NCBI RefSeq assembly: GCF_003688415.1
Contig: NZ_REFJ01000005.1
Span: 55,890-119,889, forward strand
Direction: 5' to 3'
DNA from: Umboniibacter marinipuniceus
Lineage (GTDB): Bacteria; Pseudomonadota; Gammaproteobacteria; Pseudomonadales; DSM-25080
DNA length: 64,000 nucleotides
Position 1 is the stretch's first letter. Every line of letters starts with the position of its first letter. This document shows positions 2-28,319 of this stretch, piece after piece. Under the pieces are notes generated by a model that saw only the letters and a program-made list of their open reading frames with translations, did no database searches and was not told the DNA's origin. The translations under genes were made by a program, and so were the position numbers.

Positions 2-77
2 GTCCCCATCGTCTAGAGGCCTAGGACACCGCCCTTTCACGGCGGTAACAGGGGTTCGACTCCCCTTGGGGACGCCA
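2..77 (+). tRNA. tRNA-Glu (anticodon TTC), copy 1
   Basis: The 7-bp acceptor stem GTCCCCA/TGGGGAC closes a full cloverleaf. The anticodon loop of CCCTTTCAC reads TTC, the T arm is GGGGTTCGACTCCCC, the discriminator is G and the CCA is encoded. It is the first gene of the tandem Glu/Gly array. Confidence 0.97.
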
Positions 78-81
78 TATT

Positions 82-157
<76 letters not shown>

Positions 158-271
158 ATTTATCTTTGTTGGCCCAAAGATAGAACACTTCCTCTAGGGG
201 AAGTGAGTTAAGCAAGAAATTGTTTAACGGCATTGAAATATGCCACTAGGTTTCGTAAGAAATCGTCCTAA

Positions 272-347
272 GTCCCCATCGTCTAGAGGCCTAGGACACC
301 GCCCTTTCACGGCGGTAACAGGGGTTCGACTCCCCTTGGGGACGCCA
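272..347 (+). tRNA. tRNA-Glu (TTC), copy 2
   Basis: Base-identical to the first tRNA-Glu, 270 bp downstream. The CCA is encoded and a tRNA-Gly follows after 4 bp. Confidence 0.97.
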
Positions 348-351
348 TATT

Positions 352-427
<76 letters not shown>

Positions 428-541
428 ATTTATCTTTGTTGGCCCAAAGATAGAACACTTGCTCTAGGGGAAGTAAGTTAAGCAAGAAATTGTTTAACGG
501 CATTGAAATATGCCACTAGGTTTCGTAAGAAATCGTCCTAA

Positions 542-617
542 GTCCCCATCGTCTAGAGGCCTAGGACACCGCCCTTTCACGGCGGTAACAGGGGTTCGAC
601 TCCCCTTGGGGACGCCA
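542..617 (+). tRNA. tRNA-Glu (TTC), copy 3
   Basis: Third identical tRNA-Glu. Instead of a tRNA-Gly it is followed within 10 bp by a rho-independent terminator, so this is the last intact gene of the tRNA transcript. Confidence 0.97.
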
Positions 618-22300: not shown

Positions 22301-23074
22301 ATGGGGTTATTAAGAATGCTCAGCTTCAAGTTATTTCGTTATTTGGTTCTCGTCTTCGTCTTATGTGCAGGGTCAGCTCAAGCGCAACCTAATGCCGAAA
22401 CTATTATTCGAGCCACCGTGGACAATTGGCGGGGATTGACTTCGGTGGGTGAGGTGACCATGACTATTCATCGTCGTGACTGGGAACGCAGCATGAGTAT
22501 GAAGGCTTGGACCCAGGGCGACGATCAATCTCTCGTACGTGTCACAGCTCCGGCCAAAGACGCCGGCAATGCTACTTTAATTGATGGCGATGACATGTGG
22601 AGCTATGCGCCACGAATCAATCGGGTCATCAAGATTCCATCGTCAATGATGGCTCAATCATGGATGGGAAGTGATTTCTCGAACAAGGACATCACAAAGT
22701 CGACCGACGTGCTGGATAACTACACCCATGTATTGATTGATCAAGGTGAGCACGAGGGCATAACGACTTACGTGATCGAATCTACACCCCATGAGGATGC
22801 CCCGGTTGTTTGGGGTAAAGAGGTCTATACCATTCGCGCTGATTATGTGATTCTGCGGCAGGAATTTTGGAGTCAGGATGGCGAGCTGGTTAAGTATATG
22901 GTGAGTTCCGACATCGTGGAGATGGATGGTAGGAAAGTTGCGGCGCGAATTCGTATGCAGCCAGCCGATAACGATGATGAATGGACTGAGATCGTTCAGC
23001 AATCCATTGAGTTTGACGTGGCGTTGAGCGGCTCTACTTTCACGCAAGCAAACTTGAGAAACCCGCGTCAATGA
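22301..23074 (+). CDS. LolA-like outer-membrane lipoprotein-sorting protein
   Basis: The 257-aa protein has a signal peptide (cleaved near AQAQP). It has the LolA/LppX-like fold pattern of the 'outer membrane lipoprotein-sorting protein' family: VTMTIHRRDWERSMSMKAWT, LVRVTAPAKDAGNATLIDGD, MWSYAPRINRVIKIPSSMM, GSDFSNKDI. Members are periplasmic carriers for hydrophobic ligands. It is the first gene of a five-gene unit, with a 4-bp overlap to the first permease, and probably receives or delivers the ligand handled by that ABC transporter. The start could also be the ATG at 22316. Confidence 0.88.
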   Translation: MGLLRMLSFKLFRYLVLVFVLCAGSAQAQPNAETIIRATVDNWRGLTSVGEVTMTIHRRDWERSMSMKAWTQGDDQSLVRVTAPAKDAGNATLIDGDDMWSYAPRINRVIKIPSSMMAQSWMGSDFSNKDITKSTDVLDNYTHVLIDQGEHEGITTYVIESTPHEDAPVVWGKEVYTIRADYVILRQEFWSQDGELVKYMVSSDIVEMDGRKVAARIRMQPADNDDEWTEIVQQSIEFDVALSGSTFTQANLRNPRQ

Positions 23075-24288
23075 ATACTGAATTTGCATTAGCGTGGCGA
23101 AACCTATGGCGAAGAGCGAAACGGACTTGGATTACTATTGCCGCCATTGTGTTTTGTAATGCTATTTTGGTCTTTGGTATTAGCGTTCAGATGGGTGCCT
23201 ATGATGGCATGATTGATACTACGCTAAAGGTTTTTGGCGGGCATATCCAGCTGTCGAAGGTGGGGTACAACGATGATCCTAGCCTCCGCGAGACGATTCC
23301 TAATGGCCGTAATCTTGCGCAGTCACTTCGTAATAATTATCCCAAGCTTCTCGTCACTACTCGGAGCGAGTCATTTGTTTTGGCAGCCACGGAAACGCGC
23401 AGTGCGGGAGTCCAAATTGTTGGTGTTGAACCCAGTTCCGAAAGTGAATTTTCCTCGGTAGGATCAGTGTTGGCGGAAGACAACCTTGCCATCGCAAGCG
23501 ACGAAGCAGTTCTCGGGTCGCTTCTGTCTCGGCATCTTGGGGTTTCAAAGGGTGATGAGTTTAGTTTCGTGGGAACGGCTAAAGATGGTTCGTTTGCCGC
23601 GGGGATGTTGAATTCGAAGGCTCGCTTTGAGTCTGGCTCCGATGAGCTAGATCGAGCGATGGTATTGATTCATATTGAGGACTTTGACCGCGCGTTCGCC
23701 ATGGCAGGGGACGTTCACCAAATAATGGTTCAAGTCCCTCATCTGGACGACGCTAATGTCTATCGTGATCGTATTGAAGGCTGGTTGGCGAACTCAGACA
23801 TCGAAGTACTATCTTGGCAACAGCTTAATCCAGGTCTTCAGGAAGCTATTCAAGCCGATTTGACCAGCGCGATGGTGATGTATGGCATTCTGATTGCCCT
23901 AGTGATCTTCAGTGTTCTTAACACCCAGCTTATGTCCGTGCTCGAGCGCACTCATGAGTTTGGAATTATGAAGTCAATCGGCTTAAGTAACTGGAGACTG
24001 GCGAAACTTATCTTCATTGAAACAGCTATGCTCGCGGCAATTGGTTTAATTTTCGGCGTGCTCTTGGGGGCTGCATTGGCGTCGGTATTGGCCTATACAG
24101 GACTGGCTATCCCAGGAATGGACGAAGCCAATTACAGTTTTCAGATTCCCGATAGACTCTATCCTTTAATTAACTTCAATACCCTGCTAATTGGGCCAAC
24201 GGTAGTCTTCTTTGGGAGCTTGTTAGCTGCAATCTACCCAGCTCGAAAATTACAGCGCTTACAGCCGATCGAGGCAATGAGATCATGA
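23071..24288 (+). CDS. FtsX/LolC-type ABC permease, first
   Basis: The 405-aa protein has a first membrane helix at 22-42 (ITIAAIVFCNAILVFGISVQ), a large periplasmic domain (MacB-PCD-like, 45-265) and three C-terminal helices with the FtsX signature LERTHEFGIMKSIGLSNWRL and a final YPARKLQRLQPIEAMRS. LolCDE and MacB permeases with this topology extract hydrophobic cargo from the inner-membrane outer leaflet by mechanotransmission, not classical channel transport. It overlaps its neighbours by 4 bp on both sides. Confidence 0.92.
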   Translation: MNTEFALAWRNLWRRAKRTWITIAAIVFCNAILVFGISVQMGAYDGMIDTTLKVFGGHIQLSKVGYNDDPSLRETIPNGRNLAQSLRNNYPKLLVTTRSESFVLAATETRSAGVQIVGVEPSSESEFSSVGSVLAEDNLAIASDEAVLGSLLSRHLGVSKGDEFSFVGTAKDGSFAAGMLNSKARFESGSDELDRAMVLIHIEDFDRAFAMAGDVHQIMVQVPHLDDANVYRDRIEGWLANSDIEVLSWQQLNPGLQEAIQADLTSAMVMYGILIALVIFSVLNTQLMSVLERTHEFGIMKSIGLSNWRLAKLIFIETAMLAAIGLIFGVLLGAALASVLAYTGLAIPGMDEANYSFQIPDRLYPLINFNTLLIGPTVVFFGSLLAAIYPARKLQRLQPIEAMRS

Positions 24289-25517
24289 TGACGCTGATGA
24301 ACACACTCGTTACCAAACTCGCCTGGCGTAACCTATGGCGGAATCATCGTCGAACTACCATTATGTTGTTAGCGATATCGCTGGGTATTTGGGCCATGAT
24401 CATACTTACCGCGATACTTCGCGGCATGATGGAAGATATGTCTGAGCGCAGTATTAACTCTTTGCCAGGGCATCTTCAGATCAATCAGTCGGAGTACCTG
24501 CTTGACCCGAATATTGAAAACGGCTTTTCTGCACAACCGCAGGCGCTGCTTGAATTCGTTGCTGCCGATGTCGAACTAACCATGATAGAAAGACTTCAAG
24601 TTGCTAGTGTCATTACTAGTGAACGAGATTTTCGCGGCGTCACATTGATCGGTTTGGATCCCGTGGCTGAACCCCTAGATAGGCTTGGTATCGAGCTTAT
24701 CGATGGGCGAGAACTTGGATCCGAAAGTAACGGTGTACTCATCGGCCGGCGTCTGGCAGAACGTTTAGAAACCACAGTGGGAAGACGAATAGTTATCACT
24801 ACTCAAGGTCTTGAATCAGCAACTCGAGAGCGGGGAGTCAGAGTTGAAGGTATCTATCAAGCCGACTTGGCAAGTGCTGAGGAGAGTATTGTTTACAGTA
24901 GTCTGGGTTTTGCTCAGTCGTTAACACAGGCTACCGATAGGGTCACCGAGATAGCGTTATTTGTGGCGGATGAAGAACGACTTGAGTTGGTTCAAGAGGA
25001 AGTTGATAAGCTAATTGATGAGAACTTAACACTCAGGAATTGGCGAGAAATTGATCCATATCTGGCGAGCATGATGGCGACGATGAACGGTTTTATTGTC
25101 GTTTGGATAGCAATTGTCTTTATTGCTATGTCCTTCGGTTTGGCTAATACGTTCATCATGGCAGTCTTCGAGCGGACTAGAGAGGTCGGGCTTATGATGG
25201 CTTTAGGGCTGAAACCCGCCAATATCCTAGCTCAAGTGTTAATTGAAACACTACTGCTGCTGTTGCTGGGGGTCATGGTTGGCAATGCTTTAGCGATGTT
25301 GACTTTGTTCTTATTTCGGGATGGTCTTGATCTATCGGCCGTAGCCACGGGCTTAGATAGCATTGGTATGGCGCCAGTTTTAACACCCAGCCTCAGCCTT
25401 CAAGACGCTGTAATGGCTAATTTAGTCGTGGTGATACTCGGGCTTCTTACAAGTGTATTACCCGCGTGGCGAGCTTCTCGCTTAGATCCAATCAAAGCAA
25501 TCAACTCAATCAGTTAA
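24285..25517 (+). CDS. FtsX/LolC-type ABC permease, second
   Basis: The 410-aa paralogue of the preceding permease has the same topology: WRNLWRNHRRTTIMLLAISL near the N terminus, a periplasmic domain, FERTREVGLMMALGLKPANI and a final LPAWRASRLDPIKAINSIS. The two form a LolC/LolE-like heterodimer. It overlaps the first permease by 4 bp; 52 bp separate it from the ATPase. Confidence 0.92.
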   Translation: MMTLMNTLVTKLAWRNLWRNHRRTTIMLLAISLGIWAMIILTAILRGMMEDMSERSINSLPGHLQINQSEYLLDPNIENGFSAQPQALLEFVAADVELTMIERLQVASVITSERDFRGVTLIGLDPVAEPLDRLGIELIDGRELGSESNGVLIGRRLAERLETTVGRRIVITTQGLESATRERGVRVEGIYQADLASAEESIVYSSLGFAQSLTQATDRVTEIALFVADEERLELVQEEVDKLIDENLTLRNWREIDPYLASMMATMNGFIVVWIAIVFIAMSFGLANTFIMAVFERTREVGLMMALGLKPANILAQVLIETLLLLLLGVMVGNALAMLTLFLFRDGLDLSAVATGLDSIGMAPVLTPSLSLQDAVMANLVVVILGLLTSVLPAWRASRLDPIKAINSIS

Positions 25518-25569
25518 TGGAATTAATGTTCATTTAAAGTTAAAGCCACTGGCTCAGAAGGAAGAATAA

Positions 25570-26271
25570 ATGGCTGTCATTCACTGTCAAAATCTAAATC
25601 GAAGCTTTCAGCAGGGTGATGCTGTGGTGAAAGGCCTAGATGAGGTATCTCTGACCATTGAAAAGGGGGAGTTTGTCTGCCTTTCGGGGCCCTCTGGCTC
25701 AGGAAAGACAACACTTCTCAACGCGATCGGTGCCCTCGATAAACTGGACTCTGGTGAACTCTCCATCAATGGGGTTCGGATTGATAACTTATCGCAACAC
25801 GATCGAGCAGAGATGAGACTAAATACTGTGGGTTTCGTCTTTCAAGCTTACAATTTAATCCCCGTCCTTTCAGCCTGTGAGAATGTTGAATTCGTGATGC
25901 AGGTGCAAGGCGTGGCAGCTGATATCCGTCGTGAAAAAGCGCTGTCAATCTTGGCTGAGGTAGGCTTAGCGGGACTTGAACATCGTCGGCCTGCTCAACT
26001 TTCTGGGGGGCAGCAACAACGTGTTGCGGTGGCTAGGGCTATCGTTTCTGAACCGTCACTTGTACTTGCGGATGAGCCCACCGCGAATCTGGATTCAAAG
26101 TCATCAAAGAACTTAATGGAACTCTTTGTAAAGCTCAATACGATGCATGGCATAACTTTCGTTATCGCCACCCATGATGAAAGTGCGATGGCCTACTGCA
26201 GACGGATGATTCGGATGGTGGATGGCAAGATTGTCAGTGATACGCCTCAGGATGCTGTTGAAGTGCTATGA
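25570..26271 (+). CDS. LolD/MacB-type ABC ATPase
   Basis: The 233-aa ATPase has Walker A GPSGSGKTT (40-48), Q-loop VFQAYNLIPVLSACENV, signature LSGGQ (144-148), Walker B VLADEPTAN and H-loop ATHDE. The AYNLIPVLSACENVE region is typical of the LolD/MacB/FtsE group. It powers the two FtsX-type permeases just upstream. It overlaps the downstream barrel gene by 4 bp. Confidence 0.95.
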   Translation: MAVIHCQNLNRSFQQGDAVVKGLDEVSLTIEKGEFVCLSGPSGSGKTTLLNAIGALDKLDSGELSINGVRIDNLSQHDRAEMRLNTVGFVFQAYNLIPVLSACENVEFVMQVQGVAADIRREKALSILAEVGLAGLEHRRPAQLSGGQQQRVAVARAIVSEPSLVLADEPTANLDSKSSKNLMELFVKLNTMHGITFVIATHDESAMAYCRRMIRMVDGKIVSDTPQDAVEVL

Positions 26272-27515
26272 AGCCCTTATCTTTAATTCCCGTGGTGCTT
26301 TTAGGCGGTGCGCTACTCTCTGCGAATGTATGTGAAGCCAATGTGAATGGCCATATCAAGGGGCAGTATCAGAACAGCCATATTCCATCGAACAGTGCTC
26401 TTCAGCCATGGGTAGGCAGCACGTGGGAGGATGGGAGTGGTGAACTTAGGTTGAATTGGAGTGACTCATGGAGCGGGTGGAAGCTGGAAACGGCTTATCA
26501 GCTAGTTGTCACTCATGGCGACTCATTAAGCCTTCCGCCTACGCCGGGACTACCCAACGTTGGGGGTAATGAGCTAGATGCTAGTAATTGGTGGCAGCTC
26601 AGTTGGGAGATTAGTAGTTCCGATAATCAGCAAAGCTATCACCGTTTTGATCGGATCAATATCGGCTATCAATGGGATAAGCTGAGTCTGAACTTTGGGC
26701 GACAAGCGGTTACCTGGGGCAATGGTACCTTCTTTAATCCTATGGACGTACTCAATCCCTTTGATCCACTTGCCATTGATAGTGAATACAAAAGTGGTGC
26801 GGATATGCTCTATGGTCAGTACCTCTTCGAGAGTGGTAGTGATCTCCAAGGGTTGATGGTGGTGAGACGGAACAAAGCTGGTGAAGTGGCTAGCGATCAG
26901 TTTTCTCAGGCATTGCATTACCATCAGTTTGTTGAAAATGCGGAGTTAAGTATATTAATTGCGCATCACTATGACGACCGGATATTGGGTTTGGGTTGGT
27001 CGAGCTCACTTGGCGATGCCGTCTGGCAGTCCGATGTAACCTTCACGCAAACGACTAATGATGATTTTTGGAACTTAGTAAGTGGGCTAAGTTATTCGTG
27101 GTATGCGTTTAATAGTAATTTCTCGGGGGCGATTGAATATTTTTTTAGCGGTGTTGGCCTTCCTGGTGACCGCTACCAAGTAGACGATATCGCTAGCAAT
27201 GAAGCGCTCGCTAAGCGATTAGATCGAGGGGAGCTCTTCACCCTTGGGAGAAACTATCTTGGTGCCAATGTGACTATGGAGGTTCATCCGTTGTTAAATG
27301 TCAGTACTAATGCAGTGACCAACCTCCGCGATCACTCCATGATGCTGCAACTAATGGGCCTCTACGATGCTGCCGAGAGTATGCGAATAACGGGCGTAGT
27401 AGGGCTGCCAATAGGCGCTGAAGGGACCGAGTATGGAGGACTAGAGGCACCGATTCACGAACAGTTTTTCAGTTCTGGAGTTAGCGCTTACCTGCAGGTT
27501 GCTTGGTATTTTTAG
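26268..27515 (+). CDS. Outer-membrane barrel protein, DUF1302-like
   Basis: The 415-aa protein has a signal peptide (cleaved near CEANV), many alternating aromatic strands and a C-terminal YLQVAWYF. The segment NFGRQAVTWGNGTFFNPMDV with LNPFDPLAIDSEYKSGADML resembles the GRQ.V.WG...NP.D..NP element of DUF1302-type barrels. It overlaps the ATPase gene by 4 bp, so the operon encodes inner-membrane, periplasmic and outer-membrane parts of one pathway. The family assignment is my motif-level judgement; the barrel itself is clear. Confidence 0.75.
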   Translation: MKPLSLIPVVLLGGALLSANVCEANVNGHIKGQYQNSHIPSNSALQPWVGSTWEDGSGELRLNWSDSWSGWKLETAYQLVVTHGDSLSLPPTPGLPNVGGNELDASNWWQLSWEISSSDNQQSYHRFDRINIGYQWDKLSLNFGRQAVTWGNGTFFNPMDVLNPFDPLAIDSEYKSGADMLYGQYLFESGSDLQGLMVVRRNKAGEVASDQFSQALHYHQFVENAELSILIAHHYDDRILGLGWSSSLGDAVWQSDVTFTQTTNDDFWNLVSGLSYSWYAFNSNFSGAIEYFFSGVGLPGDRYQVDDIASNEALAKRLDRGELFTLGRNYLGANVTMEVHPLLNVSTNAVTNLRDHSMMLQLMGLYDAAESMRITGVVGLPIGAEGTEYGGLEAPIHEQFFSSGVSAYLQVAWYF

Positions 27516-27641: not shown

Positions 27642-28319
27642 ATGAAATCGACCATTCACCAACAGGTAACGAACTTCTACAGTGCGCTCCACCCCCGCCA
27701 TCGCTTCTATGTTCAGGGTAAGTTGCGCTGGGACGATCTCAGTGCAACGCTTCCCCAATACCTTCGATGTGATGAACGGCAGTCCCTTGGGCGTTTACTT
27801 GATGTGGGGTGCGGTCGAGGTCAGTACGGGGTCTTGGCCGGATTATCGCGGCCATTGGATCAACTCGTGGGAGTAGATTTCGACGCCGGGAAAATTGCAG
27901 CTGCTCAACGGGCGCTAACACGTGCGCAAATTTCTCAGCCGGCTATGCGCAGCTGGAAATTTAGTGTTGAAGATGCAACCTATCTCAAAGCAAGTGCCTT
28001 CGACACAATTTTTCTTTTTGATGTGCTTCACTACCTAGACGAGCCACAGCAACTTAAGCTCGCTCAAGCGTTAGTTAAGATACTCTCACCGGGTGGCCGC
28101 CTGTATTTTAGAGATACGGGAAGTGGCTTGGGGGGGCGAGTCAACCTTTTGATTGAAAAGTTGATTCGTCGCCTAGGTATAATGAAAGGTCATACTCTTA
28201 ATTTTCGTACCAGTGATCAACTCGAATCGCTGTGGGCTCACGTGGGACTTAAGTGCTTAACCAAGGTGCAGGGGGATAAGTTTTCGACCCTTTTTCTTAT
28301 TCTTGAAAAGTCAGAGTGA
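27642..28319 (+). CDS. Class I SAM-dependent methyltransferase
   Basis: The 225-aa methyltransferase has motif I LLDVGCGRGQYG (52-63), acidic motif GVDFDAGKIAAA, motif IV TIFLFDVLHYLDEPQQ and post-motif LSPGGRLYFRD. The small size and LFDVLHYL resemble methyltransferases of lipid or quinone head groups, but the substrate cannot be read from the sequence. It follows the LolA-like/ABC/barrel operon after 126 bp and might belong to the same function. The ATG follows GAGGAACA. Confidence 0.85.
   Translation: MKSTIHQQVTNFYSALHPRHRFYVQGKLRWDDLSATLPQYLRCDERQSLGRLLDVGCGRGQYGVLAGLSRPLDQLVGVDFDAGKIAAAQRALTRAQISQPAMRSWKFSVEDATYLKASAFDTIFLFDVLHYLDEPQQLKLAQALVKILSPGGRLYFRDTGSGLGGRVNLLIEKLIRRLGIMKGHTLNFRTSDQLESLWAHVGLKCLTKVQGDKFSTLFLILEKSE

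Follow-up and report, generated by a model that had tools for sequence, protein, structure and literature searches.

What does an ATP-binding cassette (ABC) transporter resembling the Lol lipoprotein extractor do when it is encoded together with an outer-membrane barrel instead of LolB? The question is raised by positions 22301-27515 of a 64,000-nucleotide stretch of the Umboniibacter marinipuniceus genome (contig NZ_REFJ01000005.1; hereafter the window). Five open reading frames (ORFs) are tightly packed there on the + strand, with joints of -4, -4, +52 and -4 bp: a periplasmic LolA_like carrier (A), two FtsX-type permeases (B and C), an ABC ATPase (D) and a barrel (E). A methyltransferase gene follows the barrel gene after a gap of +126 bp. 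These coordinates, taken from the ORF list, agree with an earlier reading made without database searches (the sequence-only reading), which had described five genes in one direction with the same joints. The operon is probably, at a rough probability of 0.6, a self-contained ATP-driven exporter spanning the envelope: the ABC-powered counterpart of a module made of a resistance-nodulation-division (RND) pump, a LolA-superfamily protein and a DUF1302-type barrel. Its cargo, judged by analogy, is probably a lipid-like small molecule. This reading follows from the presence of a separate Lol set, the co-occurrence of the five genes, the correlated distances of their products and the grouping of the permeases apart from LolC/E. 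It also draws on the PF17131 matches of DUF1329 proteins, LolA_like loci flanked by RND genes, the locus L160, the AmeABCD system, an Escherichia coli plasmid and a flexirubin operon.

The operon is not a Lol system. LolA (PF03548, 1.5e-25, the single match to this family in the genome), LolB (PF03550, 8.3e-24) and a lolC-lolD-lolE triplet are encoded elsewhere in the 2.69-Mb genome, outside the contig of the window. The permeases of the triplet are LolC/E as judged from score and gene order. With LolA, LolB and lolC-lolD-lolE at other places, the window does not hold the only lolCDE set, which accords with the dedicated route proposed in the sequence-only reading. Its two LolC/MacB-type permeases and LolD-type ATPase were likewise borne out by Pfam (FtsX, MacB_PCD and ABC_tran matches). 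Its LolA-like carrier needs a distinction: the protein matches PF17131 (LolA_like) in the Pfam scan, and this family only, with no match to PF03548; it is thus LolA-like, not LolA proper. The ATPase possesses Walker A, LSGGQ, Walker B and the H-loop, and scores 209.9 bits with the NCBIfam LolD model (cut-off 307.75).

The five genes are inherited as a unit. A barrel search of 37 genomes, comprising the host and its relatives, gave matches in eight, the host included; in two other genomes of the same genus, this search found no barrel match. With a six-row barrel profile, 96 of 398 genomes in the phylum gave a match, the host again among them, and many of the matches are weak. From both searches, 20 neighbourhoods were hand-picked, mostly strong matches. 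The order A-B-C-D-E on one strand was found in 15 of them, counting L064, whose second permease is spread over two ORFs, and two more (L053, L055) show the order A-D-(fused B-C)-E. The remaining three are L061, cut by a contig end, L069, with D-E only, and L059, with a barrel but without the ABC genes. A scan of named species returned 240 barrel relatives, of which 80 were kept, and all five genes lie on one strand in 65 of these loci (with B split in L088 and E in L110, and with ORF ends giving the order in L092). Of the remaining 15, 13 begin at a contig end; the exceptions are L103 and L125, the latter incomplete. The sequence-only reading had looked to a neighbourhood survey for the same gene order in many genomes, and this is what was found.

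Hosts of the full operon include Halieaceae, Woeseiaceae, Shewanella, Photobacterium lipolyticum and the Olavius Gamma 3 symbiont, as well as metagenome-assembled genomes labelled Acidobacteria or Thermoanaerobaculia. They are scattered, mostly marine or sediment bacteria. At a strict cut-off, the close barrel is present in eight of 274 gammaproteobacterial genomes, the host included; the operon is thus an accessory one with a patchy distribution. In 74 of 100 loci the five ORFs are separate and in order, and across these the pairwise distances are correlated among the five proteins (r 0.875-0.957; all p 0.001, the floor of the Mantel test); shared species history contributes to these values. 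Because sets collected through the barrel depend on it, a permease-led search was added, with the NCBIfam lolCE model on 23 gammaproteobacterial genomes. Permeases scoring 85.9-132.6 bits, intermediate between LolC/E and the remaining FtsX proteins, were found in six genomes. The complete operon is present in three of them besides the window (G431, G438, G440). In G447, the permeases, the ATPase and a barrel match share a strand and the LolA_like gene is on the opposite one; G148 has an ATPase, a permease and a LolA_like protein, with no recognised barrel.

Several loci show particular arrangements. In L053 and L055, both permeases are fused as one 834-aa protein. L059 (7480-8754) carries a barrel relative beside a tetratricopeptide repeat (TPR)-like protein, with no match to A-D within 17 kb. 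In L103 (8875-11291), the barrel gene lies on the strand opposite to that of the ATPase gene and a short permease fragment, owing to either an inversion or faulty assembly. Immediately before the operon, and on its strand, six genomes of the phylum (L060, L063, L065-L068) encode a small protein of ~130 aa. Among gene families outside the operon, even the most frequent is found in no more than 16 of 101 loci. The recurrent neighbours, named by eye, include an RND efflux pair, a cytochrome c, a glutathione-transferase-like protein and an iron-type ABC transporter; flanking genes gave no lead to the substrate for the close family and were rejected as a guide to it.

The permeases form a lineage beside LolC/E. 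With the lolCE model, B scores 104.8 bits and C 113.9 bits, both under the cut-off of 362.45; the LolC/E proteins of the genome itself score 325.5 and 333.6 bits, likewise under it. For this reason, the grouping in a permease tree weighs more than the failure at the cut-off. In this tree, built with a quick method, rooted at the midpoint and containing several long branches, all 19 LolC/E rows fall on one side of a branch (Shimodaira-Hasegawa-like approximate likelihood-ratio test, SH-aLRT, 99), and 39 B and C rows make up another group (SH-aLRT 98). The permease of an E. coli plasmid, the lone permease of G148 and the pair of G447 adjoin the latter (jointly 43 rows, SH-aLRT 89). B and C do not form one clade each: they are sisters in the f70 rows and in G447, hence more than one duplication of the permease gene took place. 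We infer that an older form with a single permease is likely. Against solved structures, the family profiles of B and C both find LolF first (2.7e-36 and 2.2e-44, respectively), then LolE, with LolC and MacB lower.

The AlphaFold2 model of the carrier (mean predicted local distance difference test, pLDDT, 92.3) has 4z48, 3bk5, 3buu and 9tp6 as closest solved folds among the matches listed (TMq 0.71-0.76); the LolA entries among the best 50 matches reach 0.39-0.47. The title of 4z48 names a DUF1329 family protein, and 9tp6 is LolA3 of Porphyromonas gingivalis. PF17131 is matched by all four DUF1329 proteins tested, each encoded next to a DUF1302 gene (6.5e-7, 2.9e-6, 1.8e-8 and 8.6e-8), two of them above the family cut-off. 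A weak match at C4:99434 was rejected as a second LolA_like protein of the genome: by reading, it looks like RseB/MucB and lies beside an RseA-like protein.

Matches to PF17131 occur in 70 of 114 gammaproteobacterial genomes. Forty LolA_like loci from 28 genomes were hand-picked across the score range of the listed matches; the sample excludes the locus of the window and those later found to be ABC-type in G431, G438 and G440. An RND gene lies within 2.6 kb on the same strand in 27 of the 40, and 15 of these also have a barrel (barrel profiles, E <=0.01). The RND profile was built from 21 RND ORFs of these same loci and is not independent of them. An FtsX permease stands beside the carrier in four loci, two with a barrel. 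Under the same 2.6-kb rule, eight have no energiser (three with a barrel), among them L204 and L205, where the carrier is on the other strand or apart; one locus gave no carrier hit. The nearest carrier scores at least 27 bits with the carrier profile A6 in 36 of the 40 loci, mostly 60 to 120.

These data bear on the possibility of a second, specialised lipoprotein pathway, in which the ABC transporter would extract a particular lipoprotein, the LolA_like protein would carry it and the barrel would assist in positioning it within or on the outer membrane. Like LolCDE-LolA-LolB and LolDF-LolA, the operon combines permeases nearest LolF and LolE, both lipoprotein extractors, with a LolD-like ATPase and a carrier of the LolA superfamily fold. 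It is unlike LolCDE-LolA-LolB in its separate permease group, five fewer residues at the LolC hook position, a carrier of PF17131 and not PF03548, and a barrel in place of LolB. Moreover, no recurrent lipoprotein gene was seen among the neighbour families examined, not all of which are annotated, and the related carriers are mostly found beside RND pumps. P. gingivalis LolA3, a relative of the carrier, binds LolB only weakly (PMC13103446). Such a pathway is unlikely.

The RND-driven relative is known from AmeABCD of Castellaniella defragrans, which consists of an HAE3-RND pump, a DUF1302 barrel, a LolA-superfamily DUF1329 protein and AmeC (PMC6394551). The system gives monoterpene tolerance: deleting it lowers tolerance and makes de-energised cells accumulate more Nile Red (PMC6394551). 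Like the operon of the window, it encodes together a LolA-superfamily periplasmic protein, a DUF1302-type barrel and one energiser. It is unlike it in using an RND pump, a DUF1329 carrier of 451 aa and a barrel of 605 aa, and in having the extra periplasmic AmeC (PMC6394551). No RND pump was found by Pfam among the five genes of the window; an ABC ATPase and two FtsX permeases are present instead. Locus L160, judged by its sequence matches, is an RND-linked intermediate: here a 631-aa barrel is accompanied by a LolA_like protein (5.6e-17) and by a fragment of an MMPL pump (0.00016). Its barrel region matches both DUF1302 (1.6e-14) and barrel profile A1 (2.6e-7); a Pfam scan of this single protein gave nothing at E <=0.01.

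The sequence-only reading had called the barrel DUF1302-like. No Pfam match to DUF1302 (PF06980) exists for the window barrel at E <=1, and what stands is a distant kinship, visible through its family and L160. A PF06980 search of the host genome was empty, as were its 14 controls, though the model matches in six of eight other genomes. DUF1302 is listed for eight of 26 barrel family members at E <=0.5 (best 3.8e-5); Wzi appears weakly for four of the 26 (best 0.013), and Porin_4 for one (1.8e-8). In hhalign, the family aligned with six DUF1302 proteins at 94.7% (E 6.3e-8) over 62 columns around a loop motif. By sequence comparison, the barrel thus appears to be a distant relative of DUF1302, not a member by Pfam's rule.

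Neither Pfam nor NCBIfam gives a significant match for the window barrel itself, and PHROGs and Protein Data Bank (PDB) sequence searches gave nothing useful (PDB: no match at E <=1). Its AlphaFold2 model, from a 34-row alignment, has a mean pLDDT of 92.6 and a predicted template modelling (TM) score of 0.87, with 18 strands counted. Foldseek finds AlgE (2.6e-12, TM 0.56), and VIA-align gives Z-scores of 23.8 for OprD-type porins, 22.5 for AlgE and 21.3 for Wzi. The modelled fold is that of AlgE/OprD-like 18-strand barrels; this likeness shows the fold, not the function. As the model resembles OprD-type uptake porins as much as AlgE, import was considered: the barrel would admit a hydrophobic nutrient, the carrier would ferry it to the inner membrane, where the ABC transporter would take it up with ATP. 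LolE, LolF and MacB all extract or export, and AmeABCD behaves as an exporter (PMC6394551), so this direction is very improbable. Residues 147-177 are the best-conserved long segment of the barrel (mean 0.67 vs. 0.45 for the whole protein, 34 sequences) and, with residues 144-146 (GRQ), hold the motif shared with DUF1302. From strand parity and DSSP on the model, this segment would be the third extracellular loop, after strand 5. In porins, loop 3 folds into the pore at this same place.

As regards the cargo, the best, though indirect, hint to a lipid-like molecule is offered by analogy with a cluster on an E. coli plasmid (NZ_CP060058.1, 11878-23074; strains G8 and G6/7), encountered in two of 5426 E. 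coli genomes. It is an acyl-chain-type gene cluster with a short-chain dehydrogenase/reductase, an acyl carrier protein, a ketosynthase-like protein, PfkB, a FeeM-like N-acyltransferase (4e-8), ABC, FtsX and LolA_like proteins, a barrel (42 bits with barrel profile A3) and a crotonase. The ABC, FtsX, LolA_like and same-family barrel genes are like those of the window, and the permease falls on the B/C side of the tree. The cluster is unlike the operon in its one permease, its other gene order, its distant proteins and its embedding in acyl-carrier, ketosynthase and FeeM-like genes. No published description of it was found. The LolA2/LolB2 pair of Flavobacterium lies in a flexirubin pigment operon (PMC11885536), which by analogy points in the same direction. 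The plasmid also bears on another alternative, the efflux of toxic hydrophobic compounds coming from outside, as AmeABCD does with monoterpenes, instead of export of a product of the cell. The carrier and barrel superfamilies common to AmeABCD are in agreement with it, and the patchy spread of the close barrel fits an accessory tolerance trait. On the other hand, permeases of the LolE/LolF type and the acyl-chain genes around the plasmid relative point to a cell-made acyl-chain cargo, and efflux is improbable.

The preferred reading, ATP-driven export, can be put as a working model. Permeases B and C with ATPase D, presumably as one complex, would extract a hydrophobic molecule with an acyl chain from the inner membrane. 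Carrier A would take it into its cavity and across the periplasm, and would deliver it to barrel E instead of LolB; the barrel may then pass it to the outer membrane or outside. With a LolE/LolF-type extractor in the position of the RND pump, the layout of AmeABCD becomes that of the present operon. More tentatively, and with odds somewhat below even, it may represent an undescribed class of ATP-driven trans-envelope lipid exporters, in which the LolE/LolF-type extractor, the LolA_like carrier and the DUF1302-kin barrel take the place of delivery to LolB, with a portable carrier-barrel module driven by either RND or ABC proteins. If this is true, the ABC branch, standing next to LolCDE as a lineage of its own, could reveal the origin of the Lol pathway. 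The operon would tie Lol machinery to lipid or metabolite export. A compact extractor, carrier and exit barrel, with an RND-driven relative, is a small testable system, and the plasmid cluster a tractable place to look for cargo.

Several points weigh against this reading. The main scans started from the barrel. Its kinship with DUF1302 lies mainly in one loop motif, the 62 columns mentioned above, and among four DUF1302 proteins, profile A3 matches one clearly (1.8e-5), the others giving 0.074, 0.12 and 5.5. Profile A6 misses the DUF1329 proteins (L158, 6.4 bits, E 2.1; L156, no match listed) and the L160 carrier (7.2 bits, E 1.2), hence the kinship of the carrier runs via the broad Pfam family. 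At the position of the LolC hook, a loop for LolA docking (PMC10865981), the B and C rows are five residues shorter than the LolC of the genome itself. The evidence on AmeABCD concerns monoterpenes and Nile Red, and no biosynthetic gene adjoining the operon was recognised in reading the ORF list.

The nearest described systems are AmeABCD and the Borrelia BBJ23-29 cluster, a proposed exporter of a non-polar ligand (PMC13078400). The latter is similar in joining a LolA-like protein, a MacB/LolE-like ABC transporter and an outer-membrane barrel in one cluster, and dissimilar in its Omp85-family barrel, single permease, two TPR proteins and spirochaete hosts (PMC13078400). MacAB-TolC shares a MacB-type periplasmic domain and an ATPase; in the window, the ATPase is separate, and neither a membrane-fusion protein nor TolC is among the five genes. 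No published description of the ABC version was recognised among the matches listed from open-access full texts, subscription papers and preprints being outside the search.

Table 1. Features of the operon in the window and the evidence for each assignment.
Feature	Position	Strand	Basis
LolA_like (PF17131) periplasmic carrier, A	22301..23074	+	257 aa; Pfam 1e-49; signal peptide by eye
FtsX-type permease 1, LolE/LolF-like, B	23071..24288	+	FtsX 5.2e-19
FtsX/MacB_PCD permease 2, LolE/LolF-like, C	24285..25517	+	MacB_PCD 6.2e-15; FtsX 9.2e-14
ABC ATPase, LolD/MacB/DevA type, D	25570..26271	+	ABC_tran 1.3e-32; motifs intact
Predicted 18-stranded outer-membrane barrel, distant DUF1302 relative, E	26268..27515	+	AlphaFold2 model; profile kinship
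Codons of barrel residues 147-177, between strands 5 and 6	26706..26798	+	Conservation; putative loop placement from DSSP

The methyltransferase gene downstream (27642-28319) was considered as a sixth member and rejected: it has no relative among the ORFs of 24 + 82 loci (phmmer, E <=1e-3), and the protein is probably outside the system. At the left edge of the window (2-617), a tandem array of five alternating tRNA-Glu and tRNA-Gly genes is present.

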